NCBI GenBank assembly: GCA_016875025.1
Contig: VGSH01000023.1
Coordinates: 1 to 33,058 of the forward strand
DNA: 33,058 nucleotides
Reading direction: 5' to 3'
Source: Deltaproteobacteria bacterium
GTDB lineage: Bacteria; Desulfobacterota; WTBG01; CAIYCZ01; CAIRTM01
Numbering within the stretch: position 1 is the stretch's first letter; each line of letters starts with the position of its first letter. The notes beneath the pieces were generated by a model that saw only the letters and a program-made list of their open reading frames with translations, ran no database searches and was not told the origin of the DNA. The position numbers and the translations under genes were made by a program. Positions 10,306 to 22,520 of the stretch are shown here, piece by piece.

Positions 10306-10337
10306 GCGGAAAACGTTTGAACTGCGGGCCGTGACTA

Positions 10338-11327
10338 TCAGTCGGCTTTGAGCTTTCTGATTTCCTCGGTCAGCGGCGGGACAACCTTGAACAGATCGTC
10401 AATCACGGCGTAATCGCACTTTGACAGAATGGGGGCTTCCCCATCCTTGTTGATCGCCACGATAACCTTGGAGGTACCCATGCCGGCATAATGCTGAATC
10501 GCGCCGGAAATACCGCAGGCGATGTAAAGATTTGCGGAAACGACCTTGCCGGTCTGACCGACCTGATCGGAAACCGGGCGCCAGCCCGCGTCAACCGCGG
10601 CGCGCGAAGCACCCACGGTCGCGCCCAGCACTTTGGCCAGGTCTTCCAGAATGCCGTAACCGCTCGCATCCTTCATGCCGCGACCGCCGGAGACGATAAC
10701 CTCTGCTTCGGTCAGGTCGACCTTGCCCGCATCGCCCTTGACAACTTCCAGGACTTTCACGCGGATGTCAGCTGCGGATACCTCTGCAGCCACATTGACG
10801 ACCTCAGCACTTTTTGAAGCGTCAGGTGCAGCAGCGATCAGCACGTTGGGACGGATCGTAGCAATGGCAACCTTGTCGGCCTGAAACTTCACATCCGCGA
10901 TCATCTTGCCGGAATACATATAGCGTTTAACAGTGAAAGCATCACCGTCAAGTCCGATGGCGGTGCAGTCAGCAGCCATGCCGGCATTGATGCGCGCGGC
11001 AACTTTCGGCATCAGGTCCTTGCCGACCACGGTTGCCCCGGCCAGCACTATTGAGGGCTGTTCCCTGGTAATCAGGTCGGCCAGAGCCTTGGCATAGCCG
11101 TCAGCGGTGTAATTCTCGAGCAAATCATTTTCAACCACATACACCTTGTCGGCACCGTACGGCGCGAACTTTCCGGCCAGGGCGGCAACGCCCTTGCCGA
11201 TGATCACCGCGCACAGAGGTTCTGACTTGGCCGTGGCAATTTTGCGGGCTTCGCTCAATATTTCAAAGGCAACCTTGCGAATGGTTCCCTGGTCCGGGAC
11301 TGTAACAACAAAAATTCCTTTACCCAT
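10338..11327 (-). CDS. etfA: Electron transfer flavoprotein, alpha subunit
   Basis: A 329-aa EtfA/FixB protein that carries the FAD domain of the soluble EtfAB heterodimer, shuttling electrons between flavoprotein dehydrogenases and ferredoxin, NAD or quinone-linked partners. The C-terminal FAD-binding domain is clear: VSGGRGMKD, GASRAAVDAGW, QVGQTGKVVSANLYIACGISGAIQ and INKDGEAPILSKCDYAV. The N-terminal part matches the EtfA alpha/beta fold (IVLAGATVVGKDLMPKVAARI). A ribosome binding site (AAGGAG) precedes the ATG. It follows etfB by 57 bases in the same operon and is followed by a strong terminator. Whether the pair is bifurcating cannot be decided by eye. Confidence 0.95.
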   Translation of the reverse strand: MGKGIFVVTVPDQGTIRKVAFEILSEARKIATAKSEPLCAVIIGKGVAALAGKFAPYGADKVYVVENDLLENYTADGYAKALADLITREQPSIVLAGATVVGKDLMPKVAARINAGMAADCTAIGLDGDAFTVKRYMYSGKMIADVKFQADKVAIATIRPNVLIAAAPDASKSAEVVNVAAEVSAADIRVKVLEVVKGDAGKVDLTEAEVIVSGGRGMKDASGYGILEDLAKVLGATVGASRAAVDAGWRPVSDQVGQTGKVVSANLYIACGISGAIQHYAGMGTSKVIVAINKDGEAPILSKCDYAVIDDLFKVVPPLTEEIRKLKAD

Positions 11328-11384
11328 GAGAATGATCTCCTTATATCATGAATGGTGTCCGTTCGTTCACATATACGCCGATAC

Positions 11385-12182
11385 CTAAATAGCCTTGGCT
11401 TCCTCGCGCAGGGCCTTGGCAAGGTTGGCGGCCTTTTCTTCCGGGGACTCGCCGCTGATTATTTTTGCGGACGTGCGCGTCGGAGGCGCGGTAAATTTCA
11501 CAACCCGGGTTCCGGAACCGGCTGCGCCGACCGTACCGGCGTCGATACCGATCTCAGCGGCCTTTACCGGCTGCAGGGGTTTTTTCTTGGCCTTCATGAT
11601 ACCGGGCAAAGAGGCATAGCGGGGCTCATTGAGACCTTTCTGACAGGTCAGCACACACGGCAGGGGAATTTCAAGGATTTCCTCGCCGCCCACGATCTGC
11701 CGGTTTACCTTCACGCTCTTTTTGTCGGCAGCCACTTCCACCTTCGTTACAAGGCTGGTGTGCGGCAGGCCCAGCAGTTCCGCCAGCGCGGGGCCGACCT
11801 GGCTCTGGTCGTCATCAATGGCCTGACGGCCGCAGTAAATGATGTCATACTGCATACCCTTGATCTGCGCGGCAAGCGCTTTGGCCGCGGCCTGGGCATC
11901 ACTGCCGTTAAAGGCTTCATCGTCAAGATGCACGGCCTTGTCAGCGCCCATGGCCAGACCGGTGCGGATCGCTTCGACCGCCCGGGCCGGACCCATGCTT
12001 ACCAGGGTCACCTCACCGCCGCCGGCTTTTTCTTTCTGGAGCAGCGCCTCTTCAATTCCGTACTCATCATACGGGCTGATAATGAACTTAACGCCGTCCA
12101 GCTTGACATCCGAACCGTCCGGAGTCGCAAGAATCTGTGCTTCTGTGTCAGGAACCTGTTTCAAACATACAATACTGTTCAT
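11385..12182 (-). CDS. etfB: Electron transfer flavoprotein, beta subunit
   Basis: A 265-aa EtfB/FixA protein, partner of the adjacent EtfA. Diagnostic segments are the N-terminal IVCLKQVPDTEAQI, the SPYDEYGIEEALLQKE helix, ALAMGADKA-like GLAMGADKAVHL, and the nucleotide-binding stretch CGRQAIDDDQSQVGPALAELL, with the PCVLTCQKGLNEPRYASLPGIMKAKKKP region typical of the subunit. The beta subunit binds AMP in classical ETFs and a second FAD in bifurcating ones. A strong ribosome binding site (GGGAGG) precedes the ATG. The pair lies about 2.2 kb downstream of the minus-strand flavoprotein/Fe-S operon and is a plausible partner of it. Confidence 0.95.
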   Translation of the reverse strand: MNSIVCLKQVPDTEAQILATPDGSDVKLDGVKFIISPYDEYGIEEALLQKEKAGGGEVTLVSMGPARAVEAIRTGLAMGADKAVHLDDEAFNGSDAQAAAKALAAQIKGMQYDIIYCGRQAIDDDQSQVGPALAELLGLPHTSLVTKVEVAADKKSVKVNRQIVGGEEILEIPLPCVLTCQKGLNEPRYASLPGIMKAKKKPLQPVKAAEIGIDAGTVGAAGSGTRVVKFTAPPTRTSAKIISGESPEEKAANLAKALREEAKAI

Positions 12183-15203: not shown

Positions 15204-16442
15204 CTATCCGTCCATCGCCATGAGCATCAGGTCGGTCAGATCATAGAGCTTCATTTTTTCCTGATTGCGCTGCAGGGGATCGTTAAGGTTCTGCTCACAG
15301 TACGGACAGCAGGTCGCGATCGCGTCGGCCCCGGTCGCCTTGGCCTCTTCGATACGCTCCTCAGCGATCCTGAAGGCATGCTCGGGATAGGCGATGCGCA
15401 CCCCGGCGCCGGCGCCGCAGCACCAGCCCTGGTCCTTGATGCGCTCCATCTCCACCAGGCGCAGGCCCGGAATGGCTTTCAGGATATCGCGCGGCTCTTC
15501 GTAGATGCCGCAGTGACGTCCGATGTGGCAGGGATCATGCCAGGTAACGGTCATAGGTACTTCGCGGGTGAATTTGATGGTTCCGTCGGCAACGAGCTTT
15601 GCCAGCACCTGCGAAACATGCACGATTTCGATCCCGTCGGTTTCAATGCCGGGGACCTGCGGGAAATCGTATTTGAGCACATGGTGGCAGCCGGCGCAGT
15701 GCGTGATGATCTTCTTCACGCCGGCCTTCTTGAACATGTCCATGTTGCGCTTGACCAGGTCGAAAAACGCCGCGCGGTCGCCGATGCGGATTGCCGGGCT
15801 GCCGCAGCAGATTTCCTTTTCGCCGAAAATGCCTACGCTGATGCCGGCCTTGTCAAGCACCTTAACGACATTGATGATTTCATGCTGCAGCAGCGGGTCA
15901 AAGGCCGGTGTGCAGCCGACGAAAAACAGATAATCGCACTTTTCTTTAGAGGCATCCTTAACGGGAAGACCCTTGGCCCAGTCAGCGCGTTTGGTGCGCG
16001 GCTGCAGCCAGGGGTTGTCATAGTTCTTAATACTCTTGAGCAGCTCCTGGTGCTGGGGCAGCGGCCCGATCCCCATCTCGATCAGCCGGGTCTTCAGGGC
16101 CTCGGCCGCCTTGAGCGGCTCTTTTTCATTGAGGCGCAGACAGTTCATCTCACAGGCGCCGCACGAGGTGCAGGTATAGCAGATTTCGAGCATTTTCTCG
16201 GAATCCTCAACCTCGAAATCGCCCTCGAGCAGGGCGCGGATGATATGAAATTTTCCCATCGCGCTGTGGGAGAAAAAACGGTTGTGCCGGAATTCTGGGC
16301 AGATCTCGTTATACTTCGAGCTTTTAACATTCCAGCCCCACTGGTTCATGCACCAGTTGCAGCGCGCATCTCCCCAGGCCATCTCGCGATAGTCCTCAAG
16401 GGTGCGCTCATAGACCTTCTTGTCGATTTTTGGATATGTCAT
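15204..16442 (-). CDS. CCG-domain Fe-S protein (HdrD/GlcF-like), second paralogue in the operon
   Basis: A 412-aa soluble Fe-S protein. The N-terminal ferredoxin-like part has CNWC...ICPEF, in which the third cysteine of the usual CxxCxxC is Gln, and a complete CYTCTSCGACEMNC cluster motif. Two CCG domains follow: GCT...CCGSP...HCAGC, and HDPCH...WCCGAGAG...CCPYC, both with full ligand sets for non-cubane Fe-S clusters as in HdrB. Such proteins relay two-electron chemistry between a flavoprotein and thiol, quinone or other acceptors. It is paralogous to 19766-21055. It follows the AOR-like gene by 86 bases. Confidence 0.88.
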   Translation of the reverse strand: MTYPKIDKKVYERTLEDYREMAWGDARCNWCMNQWGWNVKSSKYNEICPEFRHNRFFSHSAMGKFHIIRALLEGDFEVEDSEKMLEICYTCTSCGACEMNCLRLNEKEPLKAAEALKTRLIEMGIGPLPQHQELLKSIKNYDNPWLQPRTKRADWAKGLPVKDASKEKCDYLFFVGCTPAFDPLLQHEIINVVKVLDKAGISVGIFGEKEICCGSPAIRIGDRAAFFDLVKRNMDMFKKAGVKKIITHCAGCHHVLKYDFPQVPGIETDGIEIVHVSQVLAKLVADGTIKFTREVPMTVTWHDPCHIGRHCGIYEEPRDILKAIPGLRLVEMERIKDQGWCCGAGAGVRIAYPEHAFRIAEERIEEAKATGADAIATCCPYCEQNLNDPLQRNQEKMKLYDLTDLMLMAMDG

Positions 16443-16528: not shown

Positions 16529-17788
16529 TCAAGCACTTTTTGCGATCACAGCGGATGCGATCCGGTCAAGCTCTTCAGCGCTGAAATCATCCCACTCGGC
16601 CGACATCTGCACAAGCTCAACAATCTTTGCCTCTGTAATCTCAGGCGCCATCACCATCAGCATGGGATCGATTCCCAGAACAGCCGCGAGCGCCTGGCGT
16701 TTCTGCCATCCGGCATCGCCCTGGCCGCTGCCGAAGATCGAAACCGGCACAGCGGTTGAAAACGCGCCGGCCTTTCCAGCGTCAGCGCTCACGCCGTCTG
16801 TCTTTCCAGCCTTTGCAGCGGCCTCAGGCTCAATGCCCTGACGGAAGCACTGCTCCATGGCCTGACCTGCGTCAAGCCCGGCACCGTGCAGCGCGGCAAA
16901 GCCCTGAATGTCGGTGATCAGGCAGCCGGGGGCCGGATGGCCCTTCATATCCACAGCGGTCGGTGCCTCGTTATATTTCACGAACGCGGCGGCTGCGTAG
17001 GGACAGTTGTAAGCGGCATTGTTGCGATGCGTCATGCTCGCCAGCTTTTCAATCGCGCCGGCATCGATGCCGATGTCCTTCGCGATGTCCTTCAGTCCGT
17101 ACTTTCCGGAAATGGCCCCGGCGCAGATAGCGTTTTTCAAATCGACGCATGCGCCGAAAAAGCCTTCGGCAACATCGAGCGAATCAAGCCCGCGCAGAGC
17201 GATCGCTTTCAGCTTCTTGGCGCCAAACACCGCACCGAGAGCTGACTTGTCAAAGCTGCCCCAGTAGTTGACCGAGAACTGGCTGGCCTTTGACTGTGCT
17301 TCAGCGGCCGGACCGATCACGAGCAGCTGGATCATCTCATCGCCGTAGGCCTCGCGGATCTTATCGACCGAATCCCAGACGTCCTTGCCCCAGATATCAG
17401 CGGCATCGTCAAGGTCTGAGAGACCGTCGTGCAGCCACAGCCTCACCGGGCTGTCGGATGAGCCCAGCACCACCACGAAATCAAAGCCGGTCAGCTTCAG
17501 CTCCACGGCCGCATAGCCTCCGAACGGCACATGGCACAGCTTGCCGGTCACGGGGCTTTTGGCGCTCACCACGCCGGCGCAGCCGCCGGGCATGAACGTG
17601 CCGGTGAAAAACCCGGTGCCGATAATGAGCGGGTCGCGGTCCTTGTACTGCTCATACAGGGCCGTGGTGATGCCGGCGCCGCCCAGACCAGCGGCCACCA
17701 TATCTTCGCTCAGCGATTCGGTATCGCACTGTTTTGCATCAAGGTCAACAATCAGGATCGTCTCTTTGTAATTGTTCATCAGTTCCAT
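16529..17788 (-). CDS. Degenerate aldehyde:ferredoxin oxidoreductase (AOR)-family protein
   Basis: A 419-aa protein clearly related to the tungsten AOR family but far shorter than the usual 600-650 residues. The N-terminal domain is recognisable: GTGFFTGTFMPGGCAGVVSA (57-76), SPVTGKLCHVPFGGYAAVEL, and FDFVVVLGSSDSPVRLWLHD. The second domain keeps IGPAAEAQ and ALGAVFGAKKLKAIALRG. Where AORs carry the CxxCxxxC ligands of their 4Fe-4S cluster, this protein has AYNCPYAAAAF, leaving one cysteine (Cys262). Most of the third domain, which completes the pterin pocket, is missing; only a family-like C-terminal tail remains. The start is fixed by GGAGG 9 bases upstream. It is 4 bases from the preceding ferredoxin gene. 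A structural or scaffold role is possible. Confidence 0.8.
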   Translation of the reverse strand: MELMNNYKETILIVDLDAKQCDTESLSEDMVAAGLGGAGITTALYEQYKDRDPLIIGTGFFTGTFMPGGCAGVVSAKSPVTGKLCHVPFGGYAAVELKLTGFDFVVVLGSSDSPVRLWLHDGLSDLDDAADIWGKDVWDSVDKIREAYGDEMIQLLVIGPAAEAQSKASQFSVNYWGSFDKSALGAVFGAKKLKAIALRGLDSLDVAEGFFGACVDLKNAICAGAISGKYGLKDIAKDIGIDAGAIEKLASMTHRNNAAYNCPYAAAAFVKYNEAPTAVDMKGHPAPGCLITDIQGFAALHGAGLDAGQAMEQCFRQGIEPEAAAKAGKTDGVSADAGKAGAFSTAVPVSIFGSGQGDAGWQKRQALAAVLGIDPMLMVMAPEITEAKIVELVQMSAEWDDFSAEELDRIASAVIAKSA

Positions 17789-17792
17789 AGCA

Positions 17793-18137
17793 TTAACCCT
17801 CCAGGCTCAAAACACCATACGGACAGGCCCGCACACACAACGGCCCGTCATCCTCGTCTGCGCAGCAGTCACAGGCGACCCGCAGAAGGATCGGCTTGGC
17901 GCTTGCGCCCGCGCCTTCGATCTGCTCGCCCGGCTTCAGGAGCTGCTCGCCCTCGGGGCGTCCCAGGTACAGTGTTTTGGCGCGCTTGACCATCATGCCG
18001 TAATAGTTCTTTTTTTCTTCAAAATAAAACATCAGGCTCGATCCGATCGATGAGATCGTCTCATCCTGATGATAGTTGCAGGCAAACTCGCAGATGCGGC
18101 AGCCGGTGCATTTCAGTGAATCAACCTTCAAATCCAT
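17793..18137 (-). CDS. Two-cluster 4Fe-4S ferredoxin-like protein, AOR partner type
   Basis: A 114-aa protein with cysteines at both ends: CTGCRICEFAC near residue 10, and CDCCADEDDGPLCVRACPYGVL at the C-terminus, enough for two 4Fe-4S clusters. The spacing and the insert between them (KNYYGMMVKRAKTLYLGRPEG) are like the electron-transfer subunits that accompany AOR-family enzymes, including the BamC-type subunit of class II benzoyl-CoA reductase. The ATG at 18137 is preferred over 18143 because AAGGAG then has proper spacing. It sits 4 bases before the AOR-like gene, so the two are tightly coupled and probably form a subcomplex. Confidence 0.85.
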   Translation of the reverse strand: MDLKVDSLKCTGCRICEFACNYHQDETISSIGSSLMFYFEEKKNYYGMMVKRAKTLYLGRPEGEQLLKPGEQIEGAGASAKPILLRVACDCCADEDDGPLCVRACPYGVLSLEG

Positions 18138-18183
18138 AATCATGTCTCCTTGTAAAGGTAAAGGTATCCTTCATGCCGCCCGG

Positions 18184-19752
18184 CTAATTTTCGATCGGGA
18201 AATTATGCGGCGGGTTGGAAACCACGTTCGGGTCGATCGCTTTCTTGATGCCTTTGAGCAGGCGGTCATAGCCGAATACCGGGCCGGCCATCGCATGGTA
18301 AACGCCGCCAAGGAACGGGCCGATGCCGTTTTCAAGGCCGTTCTGCACGTCCTGCTTGGTCATTTCCAACAGCTTGCCCATGAGATCGCCGATGGCCTCA
18401 GGCGTCTTCTCGACCGGAAAATCGGTCTCGCCGAAGCCGAAATGACCGAAGTCATAGCCGCCGATCCAGTCCGGGCCGTCGCTGTCGAGAATGGGGGGCG
18501 AGAACTTGTCCACCCACTCGTAGCCCTGACGCACATGGTCGATCGCGTACTTCAGGGTGTCGGTCTGCAGGCGCAGTGCCAGGAACGTGCCCGAGGCGCG
18601 CATCATGCGCGAGCCATGCGTGTCGCGGATCCAGTTGTTTGCCTGGCGCGGCACCCACATGTCCTGCACTTCCTGCTTCACGGGCTTGCCGCCTGTTTCC
18701 TTGATGATGTCTTCAAGCACGCGCTTTTCATACTCAAGCTGCTTGCCCGATGAGAAACCCCAGAGGCACACGCCCACGGCGTTTTTCACGTTGTCCTGGA
18801 ATGTGCGCTTCTGCCACTCGGTCCAGTACTGCTCGCAGGAATTGGACCACCACATGATATAATACACGGTGGGCCATTTCTGGATAACGCCGGCGATCTC
18901 GGCCCGGCCCACTTCATACATGAAATTGACGGCATCCTCCAGCGACTCGTACTTCACCATGTACCACTTGAAACGATCTTCGGGCAGCACCGAGGTCTGG
19001 TTGGGGATCATGCCTTCCACGGGCCATACCTTCGGGCCCGGATAGGGGTGCAGCTTGACGGCCATCTTCGTTACCATGCCGACGCCGCCCATGGCGCCGG
19101 CATATCCGCGCAGCATGCCGCGCAGGTCCGGGCCTGGACCCTCACCCCAGAAACCATTGTCCGCGTCCTGTGAAAACGACCCGGTGCGCAGGATTTCGCC
19201 GTTCGGGAGCACCCATTCAACGCCCAGGATGTTCCGGTAGGCAACGCCCAGGCGGTAACCCACGCCCCACATGCCCTGGAATACATGGCCGCCGATACAG
19301 CTTGCCGTGGCGCTCGCCTCAGGTGAGCCGATGTAGAGACCGCGCTTGTAGGCCTCGGCCTGCATCTGCGCCAGCGTGCACAGGGGCTCGACCACGGCGT
19401 ACATGTTCTTCTCATCGATCTCGTGGATTTTACCCATGCGCTTGCAGTCGATGATCACGGTATGGGGCCGGTTGGGAGAACCGGTCAGCGACCACTGGTT
19501 CGATCCCACGGGGATAAAGGGGATTTTATAGCGGTTGCAGATTTTAATAATTGCCTGAACTTCCATGGTGCCGTTGGGCAGCACCACGAATTCAGGCGGC
19601 ATGGACATGCCCAGGATCTTCGGGGGCAGAAAGTCGCCGAAATAGGCATTGACCGTTGCGGGATTATCTCTCACATTGTCTGCGCCGATAGCAGACTGAA
19701 ACGCATTCAGAATCTGCTGGTGGCGGTCGTCGTTTTTAGCTTTAGCTGTCAT
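18184..19752 (-). CDS. FAD-linked oxidase (GlcD/vanillyl-alcohol-oxidase-like), second flavoprotein in the operon
   Basis: A 522-aa flavoprotein of the FAD-binding PCMH superfamily. The N-terminal FAD domain shows PPEFVVLPNGTMEVQAIIKICNR-type spacing with IPFIPVGSNQWSLTG, the flavin-adjacent ATASCIGGHVFQGMWGVGYR loop, and GAMGGVGMVTKMAVKLHPYP. The C-terminal substrate domain ends in KKAIDPNVVSNPPHNFP, the usual family ending. Family members oxidise 2-hydroxy acids, phenols or alcohols and hand electrons to a CCG-domain protein, quinone or Etf. The substrate is unknown. A strong ribosome binding site (GAGGAGG) precedes the ATG, 13 bases after the upstream CCG gene. It is only distantly similar to the first flavoprotein, so the two likely act on different partners. 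Confidence 0.88.
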   Translation of the reverse strand: MTAKAKNDDRHQQILNAFQSAIGADNVRDNPATVNAYFGDFLPPKILGMSMPPEFVVLPNGTMEVQAIIKICNRYKIPFIPVGSNQWSLTGSPNRPHTVIIDCKRMGKIHEIDEKNMYAVVEPLCTLAQMQAEAYKRGLYIGSPEASATASCIGGHVFQGMWGVGYRLGVAYRNILGVEWVLPNGEILRTGSFSQDADNGFWGEGPGPDLRGMLRGYAGAMGGVGMVTKMAVKLHPYPGPKVWPVEGMIPNQTSVLPEDRFKWYMVKYESLEDAVNFMYEVGRAEIAGVIQKWPTVYYIMWWSNSCEQYWTEWQKRTFQDNVKNAVGVCLWGFSSGKQLEYEKRVLEDIIKETGGKPVKQEVQDMWVPRQANNWIRDTHGSRMMRASGTFLALRLQTDTLKYAIDHVRQGYEWVDKFSPPILDSDGPDWIGGYDFGHFGFGETDFPVEKTPEAIGDLMGKLLEMTKQDVQNGLENGIGPFLGGVYHAMAGPVFGYDRLLKGIKKAIDPNVVSNPPHNFPIEN

Positions 19753-19765
19753 AGCTGGCCTCCTC

Positions 19766-21055
19766 TCACAGTGCTTGCATCATAAGATCGAACAGATCGA
19801 CGATCTCCATCTTTTCTTCCATGCCTATGCCGCCCGCCCGCAGGTTGGTTTCACACCAGGGGCAGCTGGTGACGATCATGGAAGCGCCGGTGTCCTTGGC
19901 CTCTTCGATGCGCTCGCGAGCGGTCCACTGCGCAAAATCCTTGAAACCGGAAAACGCGCCGCCGCCGCCGCCGCAGCACCAGGCGTATTCCCTGATGCGC
20001 TCCATCTCCACGAGCTCAACGCCGGGGATGGATTTGAGGATATTGCGCGGCTCTTCATACACGCCCAGCAGGTCCTTGCCCGGCACATAGGGACGGCCCA
20101 TACGGCCCATGTGGCAGGGGTCATGCCAGGTCACGGTAACGGGAACCTCTTTTTTAAATTTTATCTTTTTGTCATTGGTAAGCCGTTCGAGATACTCCGT
20201 CACATGCAGCACTTCAAAGTTCATCTTTTCGGGCAGCTCTTCGTAGGCAACGCGCATGGTGCCGTAGCAGCCTGCGCAGGGGGTGAGCACAATCTTCACT
20301 CCCATTTCATTGAATTTCTTTATATTGGCCGTGCCAAGCCGTTCGTATTCGGCCAGGTTGCCCGTCTTTTCGGCGGGGCTGCCGCAGCACAGTTCCTTGT
20401 CGCCGAGAGTGCCGAAGTCAACGCCGACTTTTTTGAGAATTTTGGCGATATTGACGACCGTGCCCTTCAGCTCTTCGGAAAGTCCGTACGTGCACCCGGC
20501 AAACAGCAGCACCTCGGCCTTCTCCTTGTTCAGGTCCTTGATGCCCAGATCCTTCAGTTCCTTGGTCCAGCTGTTGCGCTTCATGCGCGGCTGCAGCCAG
20601 ACATTGTCGTACTGCTTCAGGCTGTCAAGCATGGGCTTGTGCTCGGGCAGGGGCCCCATCTCCTTGATGTATTCGGCGCGCATCCAGCGATACATCTTCA
20701 CAAGCTCGGCGTCGCGGATATTTTTATCCATGGCGTCGCAGCCGCCGCACATGGTGCACTGGAACAAAATGTCCTTGATCTCGGGATCATCGCCCCATTT
20801 CATTTTGCCGTCGATAATGGCAAGGGCCAGATCGCACTTACCCTGGCCGGAGTGGGAGTCATAGAGATACTTCGTGTGCTGGGGGCAGATGCGGGCGTAC
20901 TTGGCGCTTTTTACCTGCCAGGAATTCACCCATTTGCAGACTGAGCAGCGCGAGCAGTTGAAAGCGATCCAGCGCGCCTTCTCCTGATCGAAGGGCGCCT
21001 CAAGGGGGTATTTTAAATAGCGCGGATCTTTGGGAAGCAGCATTTCCTTAGCCAT
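19766..21055 (-). CDS. CCG-domain Fe-S protein (HdrD/GlcF-like), first paralogue in the operon
   Basis: A 429-aa soluble Fe-S protein, similar throughout to 15204-16442. The N-terminal first cluster motif is complete (CSRCSVCK...ICPQH), but the second reads CTMCGGCDAMD, with Asp in place of the fourth cysteine. Two CCG domains follow: GCTYG...CCGSPAEK...PCAGCYG and HDPCHMGR...WCCGGGGG...CPWCE, with intact ligands. Two CCG domains plus ferredoxin-like clusters is the architecture of GlcF/HdrD proteins that accept electrons from a flavoprotein. I chose ATG 21055 because GGAGGATTTC precedes it. It lies between two flavoprotein genes with gaps of 28 and 13 bases. Confidence 0.88.
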   Translation of the reverse strand: MAKEMLLPKDPRYLKYPLEAPFDQEKARWIAFNCSRCSVCKWVNSWQVKSAKYARICPQHTKYLYDSHSGQGKCDLALAIIDGKMKWGDDPEIKDILFQCTMCGGCDAMDKNIRDAELVKMYRWMRAEYIKEMGPLPEHKPMLDSLKQYDNVWLQPRMKRNSWTKELKDLGIKDLNKEKAEVLLFAGCTYGLSEELKGTVVNIAKILKKVGVDFGTLGDKELCCGSPAEKTGNLAEYERLGTANIKKFNEMGVKIVLTPCAGCYGTMRVAYEELPEKMNFEVLHVTEYLERLTNDKKIKFKKEVPVTVTWHDPCHMGRMGRPYVPGKDLLGVYEEPRNILKSIPGVELVEMERIREYAWCCGGGGGAFSGFKDFAQWTARERIEEAKDTGASMIVTSCPWCETNLRAGGIGMEEKMEIVDLFDLMMQAL

Positions 21056-21083
21056 GAAATCCTCCATCTATCTGAAAATTAAA

Positions 21084-22493
21084 TTAAAAGCAAAGTTTAC
21101 CCGGGTTCATGATGCCGTTGGGATCATAAACCTTTTTAAGCTCCTTCAGCATCGCCGTATACGAGGCCGAGCGGCGATAGACCATGTCCGCCCAGGTTCC
21201 GTAGGGCCGGGTAAAAAAGGCGCCTTCATCAATGAGCTGTTTGGCCAGATCGGTCGTCAGGGAGCCGATGGCTTCTTTTTCAGCCTCATCCGCCGGATCG
21301 CAGGGAAAGCTGAACTGCAGATGGCAGGCACGGCCGCGCTCAAGGGGCTGCATGTAAACACCCACTTCGTTCAGGCTCAGTCCGTAGGTTGCGGCATAGC
21401 CCATGGCAATATCTTCATAGCCGGCGGCCCGGTCCATGGTGGTGATAAAGAACACGTCCTGTGACGGGGTCTTCCAGTAGTCGCCCGCGGGCAGGTTGCG
21501 CAGCTTGTCGATCATCATGTTTTCAAGGCCGGCAACGCCGCCTACGGTCCTGCCGGGCTGGAGCTGGAAGTCGGCCGCGATCTCCATGAGCGCATCTTCC
21601 TCATAGGCGATGCGCTCAAGCGGCCGGCGCGGCGCGCCCGCGATGACCTGAACGAGAATATAGCTGGGCAGGTCGGCCATCAGCTTGCAGAATTCCCTGG
21701 AATCGGCCGCGATGATCTGCGCCAGCAGGAACTTGCTCAGCACAAAACACTCATTGCCCACATGGCGGCGCTGCAGCTTGTAGATGGGGTCGGCTGCATC
21801 ACCGAGGTCGTCAAAACCGACGAAGAAACATTTCTGGTGTTTGGGCCGGTATTCGGTCTTTACGTTCAGCCAGCAGGCAATGCCCATGGTGCCCTGCGCG
21901 CCGAGGAAGGTGCGCCAGAAGTCGATGCCCGGGCCTTCCGGGTAGGCGCCCTGGCAGTGATCATCCGATGCCGAGCCCGTCCGGAACATGTCGCCCGTGG
22001 GCAGCACGACTTCCATGGTGAGCGCGGGCTCGCCGTATTCGTATTTGGGGATGAGCATGGGCTCGCGCTCGATCGAGCTTGTCAGGGCCGATGCTTTCGG
22101 ATGCGGGAACAGGGGATTCAAGGCCATCTGGTCATGCTCTTTGAGGGCGTCGTTCAACTGCTGCCAGGTAACGCCGGGCTCGATCTTGGCCTTGCGGTTC
22201 TGTGGGTCGATCTCAAGGATCTTGTTCATCCCGGAGAGATCCACGATCACGCCGCCTTGCTCCGGCAGCGTGGCCCCGTAAAAATGAATGCCCGAGCTTG
22301 ACGGCACCAGCGGGGTAAGCGTTTTATTGGCGAATTTCACCAGCTCCTGCACCTGCGCCGTGCTTTTCGGCTTTGCCACGGCAATCGGCTTCTTTGGAGA
22401 AGCAAGGCTGCGGTCAACGGAATAGAGCTCCAGGGTATCCTGATCATCAAGGACATTTTTAGAGCCGACAATATCCTTTAGCTCCTTAATCAT
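21084..22493 (-). CDS. FAD-linked oxidase (GlcD-like), first gene of the redox operon
   Basis: A 469-aa FAD-binding oxidase of the GlcD/D-lactate-dehydrogenase superfamily. The PCMH-type FAD domain includes PIAVAKPKSTAQVQELVKFA, the TPLVPSSSGIHFYGA flavin loop, GGVIVDLSGMNKILEID and GAQGTMGIACWLNVKTEY. The C-terminus ends with LKKVYDPNGIMNPGKLCF, a typical family ending. The substrate is unknown. ATG 22493 is preferred to 22517 because GAGGAGG lies at ideal spacing. It opens a minus-strand operon reaching at least 14892. The next gene, a CCG-domain protein, is its likely electron acceptor, as in GlcD-GlcF pairs. Confidence 0.88.
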   Translation of the reverse strand: MIKELKDIVGSKNVLDDQDTLELYSVDRSLASPKKPIAVAKPKSTAQVQELVKFANKTLTPLVPSSSGIHFYGATLPEQGGVIVDLSGMNKILEIDPQNRKAKIEPGVTWQQLNDALKEHDQMALNPLFPHPKASALTSSIEREPMLIPKYEYGEPALTMEVVLPTGDMFRTGSASDDHCQGAYPEGPGIDFWRTFLGAQGTMGIACWLNVKTEYRPKHQKCFFVGFDDLGDAADPIYKLQRRHVGNECFVLSKFLLAQIIAADSREFCKLMADLPSYILVQVIAGAPRRPLERIAYEEDALMEIAADFQLQPGRTVGGVAGLENMMIDKLRNLPAGDYWKTPSQDVFFITTMDRAAGYEDIAMGYAATYGLSLNEVGVYMQPLERGRACHLQFSFPCDPADEAEKEAIGSLTTDLAKQLIDEGAFFTRPYGTWADMVYRRSASYTAMLKELKKVYDPNGIMNPGKLCF

Positions 22494-22520
22494 AGCTACC
22501 TCCTCGGATGGGTTCAAAAG

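Follow-up and report, generated by a model that had tools for sequence, protein, structure and literature searches.

A short AOR-like protein, apparently emptied of its tungstopterin site, as a candidate subunit of a ferredoxin-linked electron-transfer complex

What role is left to a member of the AOR family that is much shorter than its relatives and has lost most of its cluster ligands? The question is raised by one gene in a 33,058-nucleotide contig of a Deltaproteobacteria bacterium, the whole of which we refer to as the window. The gene, here called AORs for its short AOR-like product, lies at 16529 to 17788 on the minus strand and encodes a protein of 419 aa with a predicted trimmed AOR fold and no tungstopterin-site residues. 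In ORF analysis, its reading frame runs unbroken from 17788 down to 16529, with stops on the plus strand in the given frame; the first-pass annotation had correctly described the frame as intact but had named no strand. The sole Pfam domain in the protein is AFOR_N (PF02730, IPR013983; residues 10 to 200, E 1.1e-45), and the same scan, at an E value of 0.01, gave no match to the C-terminal AFOR domain (IPR001203). Its closest solved proteins are tungsten AOR proteins, with similarity confined to the N-terminal part. Metabolic reconstructions would be led astray by the automatic label, an "aldehyde ferredoxin oxidoreductase N-terminal domain" protein.

In a profile alignment, about 201 of 209 AOR residues remain in domain 1, 117 of 207 in domain 2 and 78 of 186 in domain 3, with the domain borders placed at residues 210 and 417. 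These counts agree with the earlier claims on length and on a largely missing domain 3. An AlphaFold2 model built from a 35-row alignment is confident (pLDDT 92.7, pTM 0.92), and its residues 3 to 419 superpose on residues 1 to 535 of Pyrococcus furiosus AOR (1aor) over 401 residues, with a Z score of 36.4 and an rmsd of 2.4 Å. Other AOR proteins, FOR, WOR5 and BamB also match it, with Z scores of 30 to 36. A relative with four cluster cysteines, L017, gave a similar model (pLDDT 94.4, pTM 0.94) that aligns with AOR over 481 residues (Z 37.8). Profile-profile comparison of AORs with AOR matched all three domains (hhalign, E 7.5e-63). Because the fold match spans 1aor residues 1 to 535, AORs is, on the predicted structure, an AOR fold trimmed internally and at the C terminus; together with the three-domain profile match, this rules out a lone "domain 1 only" protein. 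Structural matches below rank 7 are mostly ubiquitin-like folds with Z scores under 5 that cover only residues 111 to 206 or so, and we took them as a common arrangement. The "pterin-domain fold" noted earlier is therefore upheld as a fold, but nothing in the residues suggests that a tungstopterin site survives.

We assessed that site by aligned residues, in 1aor numbering, across 35 short and 21 full-length AOR proteins. R76, N93 and R182 of 1aor are pterin/Mg contacts. The R76 equivalent is Arg in 20 of the 21 full-length proteins and in none of the 35 short ones (Ala71 in the window copy), while the R182 equivalent is mostly Gly in the short family. The position of Asn93 is Pro in all 35 short proteins; in the alignment of the window copy it corresponds to Pro88, encoded at 17525 to 17527 on the minus strand. 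Neither the window copy nor the commonest states of the short family retain the Asp that opens each of the two DxxGL(C/D) motifs. New invariants run through the family as a whole: P67, P88, W118, H120, D121, H254 and R364. Four further AOR residues are those named in PMC13328260: Thr at T243 is kept in 0 of the 35 short proteins (Lys in 33), E313 is Gly in all 35 (Gly288 in the window copy), and the region of H448 is deleted in every one, with Y427 being little informative since it varies among full-length proteins too.

The missing E313 and H448 would not settle the matter by themselves, because second-shell residues are likewise absent from YdhV and BamB, which nevertheless bind the metal cofactor (PMC12096430). 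As phosphate/Mg-site residues are lost in addition, the aligned positions make a pterin cofactor in AORs unlikely, a point absent from the first-pass annotation. It is the pterin and active site that the whole short family has lost; cluster loss is not its defining event. According to PMC13328260, large subunits of the WOR family show little variation at the positions coordinating tungstopterin and the cluster.

The cluster ligands have a more varied history. Cysteines 288, 291, 295 and 494 of 1aor correspond to Ala259, Cys262, Ala266 and Asp374 in AORs. The degenerate motif A-Y-N-C-P-Y-A-A (residues 259 to 266; 16991 to 17014, minus strand) aligns with C288xxC291xxxC295 and keeps only Cys262, and Asp374 (16667 to 16669, minus strand) occupies the place of the fourth ligand, Cys494. 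The single cysteine that had been read in the motif AYNCPYAAAAF is thus real, and the alignment identifies it as the second of the four AOR ligands. All four cysteines are present in 21 of 21 full-length proteins and in 7 of the 35 short ones (L015, L016, L017, L021, L022, L071 and L075; 455 to 502 aa). The remaining ligand states are SCAC (n = 2), xCxD with its one cysteine (n = 8, in the clade of the window copy), CTTH or CTSH (many), CMGH and SVYD (single cases) and DTTQ or NTAD (others). CCCC also occurs, together with the pterin-site losses of the short family, in two more remote short members, L107 (435 aa) and L108. In one subclade (L076 to L082 and L085 to L087), the first cluster cysteine is kept and the fourth is His (C-T-T-H), a pattern that could perhaps hold a different metal site.

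Ligand loss, as originally proposed, therefore stands for the window copy but not as a family trait, as relatives of 435 to 502 aa keep all four cysteines. The proposed tie between shortening and ligand loss fails on the same proteins, the 435-aa L107 and the homologues of 455 to 502 aa, in which the ligands are intact. Because of these relatives, we place cluster loss later and regard it as piecemeal; the simplest order suggested by the sequences is that the pterin site went first and the cluster later, more than once.

In a maximum-likelihood tree of 35 short and 22 full-length proteins, a branch supported at 100/100 separates the short ones from the rest, while long branches among the full-length proteins make the inner order of that group unsure. 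We read the short branch as a coherent group in which fold and ferredoxin partner were kept, the pterin site was discarded and the cluster too was given up by some lineages. Its members are 412 to 502 aa long, share from 94% down to about 32% identity and have intact frames. Our genome survey covered 395 genomes of one phylum, Thermodesulfobacteriota, about 36 of which carry AORs, in at least 14 families. Named records from a pattern scan belong to Thermodesulfobacteriota (including Desulfobacula and Desulfotignum), "delta proteobacterium" or similar MAGs. The full-length AOR proteins of the window genome are 33 to 37% identical to AORs, in the N-terminal domain only, and a plasmid search returned only partial matches to other AOR proteins, none covering 80% of the query. 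The open-access literature that we searched held no description of the family, which is not proof of absence.

Compared with the same-genus copy L038, AORs has a dN/dS of 0.048 (NG86), and its operon neighbors range from 0.027 to 0.151. Between genera, AORs shows 57 to 58% identity against 68 to 90% for the neighbors. AORs thus changes faster than its neighbors yet stays constrained; a less exacting structural role might account for this pace, as might co-evolution with a ligand. A pseudogene or frameshift is excluded by the low dN/dS and by relatives of equal length at 94% identity. A TAG that had appeared internal in the G117 and G337 copies is the normal C terminus of ORFs of 434 to 440 aa that contain no internal stop.

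Directly upstream of AORs, 4 bp away, lies the gene for its partner ferredoxin (17793 to 18143, minus strand), a protein of 116 aa with two complete 4Fe-4S motifs. Within the main family, this gene adjoins AORs in nearly every relative's locus with enough sequence, which bears out the tight coupling described before. The eight cluster cysteines of the ferredoxin are present in 33 of 33 relatives, indicating two 4Fe-4S clusters that were held while AORs lost its own. Beyond the ferredoxin, the conserved operon holds, all on the minus strand, FAD2 (a VAO/PCMH-type FAD protein; 18184 to 19752), CCG1 (an HdrD/GlpC-like Fe-S protein with CCG domains; 19766 to 21067) and FAD1 (a VAO/GlcD-type FAD protein; 21084 to 22517), so that two FAD_binding_4 proteins flank a CCG Fe-S protein. 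A second HdrD/GlpC-like protein with CCG domains, CCG2 (15204 to 16442, minus strand), follows AORs downstream. The order FAD1-CCG1-FAD2-ferredoxin-AORs-CCG2 is common to several genera. EtfAB (10338 to 12182) was considered as a partner and not counted, being nearby in the same genus only.

A further set of genes is inherited together with AORs. A GATase-like protein (GAT; BPL_N/S51 class, motif G[ST]CAGAY) follows AORs in about 20 loci. In the window genome, GAT lies on another contig, in a run of GAT, NarI, CCG, ABC permease, ABC ATPase, radical SAM, GNAT and AIRS genes (L118, 2504 to 10123). The radical SAM protein (MSMEG_0568 family) passes TIGR04043 with 346 bits against a cut-off of 303.7, and the GNAT protein (MSMEG_0567 family) passes TIGR04045 with 128 bits against 68.5; the AIR-synthase-like protein (AIRS) scores near but below the cut-offs of TIGR03267 and TIGR04049. 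The AORs half and the GAT/radical SAM half are united in one cluster in other genera, for example in genomes G335, G117 and G337. On L118, an IS4-family transposase gene (10308 to 11474) stands beside the GAT gene and may be connected with the division of this cluster between contigs of the window genome.

Among the 395 genomes, AORs and GAT, each in 36, share 34 (Fisher 2.6e-44), and AORs and the radical SAM gene, also in 36 each, share 33 (Fisher 3.5e-41), a count that includes two genomes with a split or partial radical SAM gene; both tests ignore kinship. Absences coincide within families as well: genomes G017, G023, G025 and G031, for example, lack all three. Most exceptions are incomplete genomes or fall at contig ends, but G195 and G376 are not of this kind. 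The window genome also holds a second MSMEG_0568-family radical SAM gene (L136, 5754 to 6821), whose neighbors are an ABC importer and apparent IscS, ThiF/MoeB, TusA and TtcA-type genes. In some genomes (L091, 5839 to 7028; L130, 6180 to 6833), apparent Rieske and/or cytochrome b6-type genes belong to the membrane part of the cluster, beside the NarI and HdrD-like genes.

The distant proteins L107 and L108 occur in another setting. There (L107, 1849 to 11909; L108, 9104 to 19594), the short AOR gene follows a polyferredoxin-like ORF with 33 cysteines, in clusters that also hold HdrC-like, molybdopterin FdhA-type and HdrA-like genes. The MSMEG_0568 radical SAM gene was not found in either genome. 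An emptied AOR subunit that accompanies another electron-transfer machine favors a scaffold or relay over a pathway-specific enzyme.

AORs belongs by fold to the AOR large-subunit superfamily and, from its residues, seems no longer to be a tungsten enzyme. We propose, with a probability of roughly 0.5, that it is the W-free subunit of an apparently undescribed ferredoxin-linked electron-transfer complex in anaerobic bacteria. By likeness to WorL-WorS and BamB-BamC, AORs and the ferredoxin would form a heterodimer. Gene adjacency suggests that this dimer may dock on one side at soluble dehydrogenase modules, namely the two VAO-type FAD proteins and two HdrD-like proteins, and the co-occurring locus offers a membrane NarI-HdrD-like module as a candidate for the other side. 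In four-cysteine members, electrons would pass through the AOR-like subunit itself; the window copy would serve as a scaffold and leave electron transport to the ferredoxin. What a scaffold or relay role alone does not explain is why AORs tracks genes for radical SAM, GNAT, AIR-synthase-like and GATase-like proteins and an ABC importer. An unlikely alternative is that the emptied pterin cleft binds another small molecule or cofactor, imported or built by those proteins, and that AORs with its ferredoxin is the redox enzyme or carrier for it. The very tight co-occurrence in the 395 genomes and the single physical cluster in several genera speak for such a ligand, as do the seven new invariant residues, of a kind that a new binding site should show. 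Against it, many of the residue changes recur in L107 and L108, whose genomes lack the radical SAM gene, and other bacteria have the radical SAM, GNAT and AIRS set in their Nit1C cluster, where AORs is absent (PMC11049912). The fuller version, in which AORs is the partner of a new cofactor or metabolite, imported or built by the co-inherited proteins, and the ferredoxin and the HdrD/NarI modules read it out, is quite unlikely; if true, it would give the Nit1C-type genes, of uncharacterized chemistry, a protein target.

Electron transfer might also not involve AORs at all. As a chaperone in the assembly or maturation of the flavoprotein/HdrD complex, it could have lost both redox centers, as in the window clade, and still be under strong purifying selection in an operon common with multi-cofactor proteins; however, the four cysteines kept in some members would be needless in a pure chaperone, and the constant pairing with a two-cluster ferredoxin also tells against this role, which we find distinctly improbable. 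An intact fold, and the metal cofactors that YdhV and BamB bind without second-shell residues (PMC12096430), lend something to the idea that AORs is still a W- or Mo-pterin enzyme with its cofactor held in an altered way. That is very improbable, given that changes also affect the R76, N93 and R182 equivalents and the leading Asp of either DxxGL(C/D) motif, and that the H448 region is deleted. Shortening and ligand loss would suit a decaying AOR remnant, but the dN/dS of 0.048, intact ORFs in more than 30 genomes, the conserved operon and the confident predicted fold leave this close to untenable; with the same-length relatives at 94% identity and the retained ferredoxin coupling, they sustain the first-pass view of repurposing rather than decay.

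Among known systems, the W-free subunit that we propose is nearest to the class II WOR enzymes (WorL-WorS) and P. furiosus AOR, with which AORs shares its fold over 401 residues. As in class II WOR, the large subunit is encoded beside a ferredoxin-like small subunit, but the WOR small subunit has four 4Fe-4S clusters and the AORs ferredoxin two, on eight conserved cysteines. Relative to WOR and AOR, AORs lacks the pterin-site residues and about 135 internal and 70 C-terminal residues, and the window copy lacks the cluster ligands also. The 4,064 WorL proteins of PMC13328260 were selected by both AFOR domains, so the short family, without a C-terminal match, lies outside that set. BamBC, the class II benzoyl-CoA reductase (4z3w), likewise joins AOR-fold and ferredoxin subunits with Hdr-like partners in anaerobes, and the AORs model matches BamB with a Z score of 30.4 over 400 residues. 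BamB, however, keeps its W-pterin cofactor (PMC13328260), the residues for which are missing from AORs.

The order FAD1-CCG1-FAD2 (18184 to 22517) resembles the FAD-CCG/Hdr-like-FAD order of BzS1_12970/80/90 and of "Magic" 24-26, a likeness of architecture only, and has the make-up of a GlcDEF-like heterotrimeric flavoprotein. In the parts of PMC13416013 and PMC13101534 available to us, these are abundant proteins of benzene-degrading anaerobes, proposed as a flavoprotein complex for anaerobic benzene activation; unlike in the window, those parts describe no AOR-like protein or adjacent ferredoxin. For the co-inherited set, the counterpart is the Nit1C cluster, in which NitD is a radical SAM, NitE a GNAT and NitF an AIR-synthase-like protein (PMC11049912), and to which, judging by product names, the three L118 genes would correspond in turn. 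The Nit1C nitrilase (TIGR04048) had no match above cut-off in the 8 genomes tested, and its place is taken here by genes for AORs, the ferredoxin, the GATase-like protein, NarI, HdrD and an ABC importer. What emerges is a gene set of anaerobes, apparently not described before, that occurs in at least 14 families of one phylum and links Nit1C-type radical SAM, GNAT and AIR-synthase-like proteins with Fe-S modules of the respiratory type.
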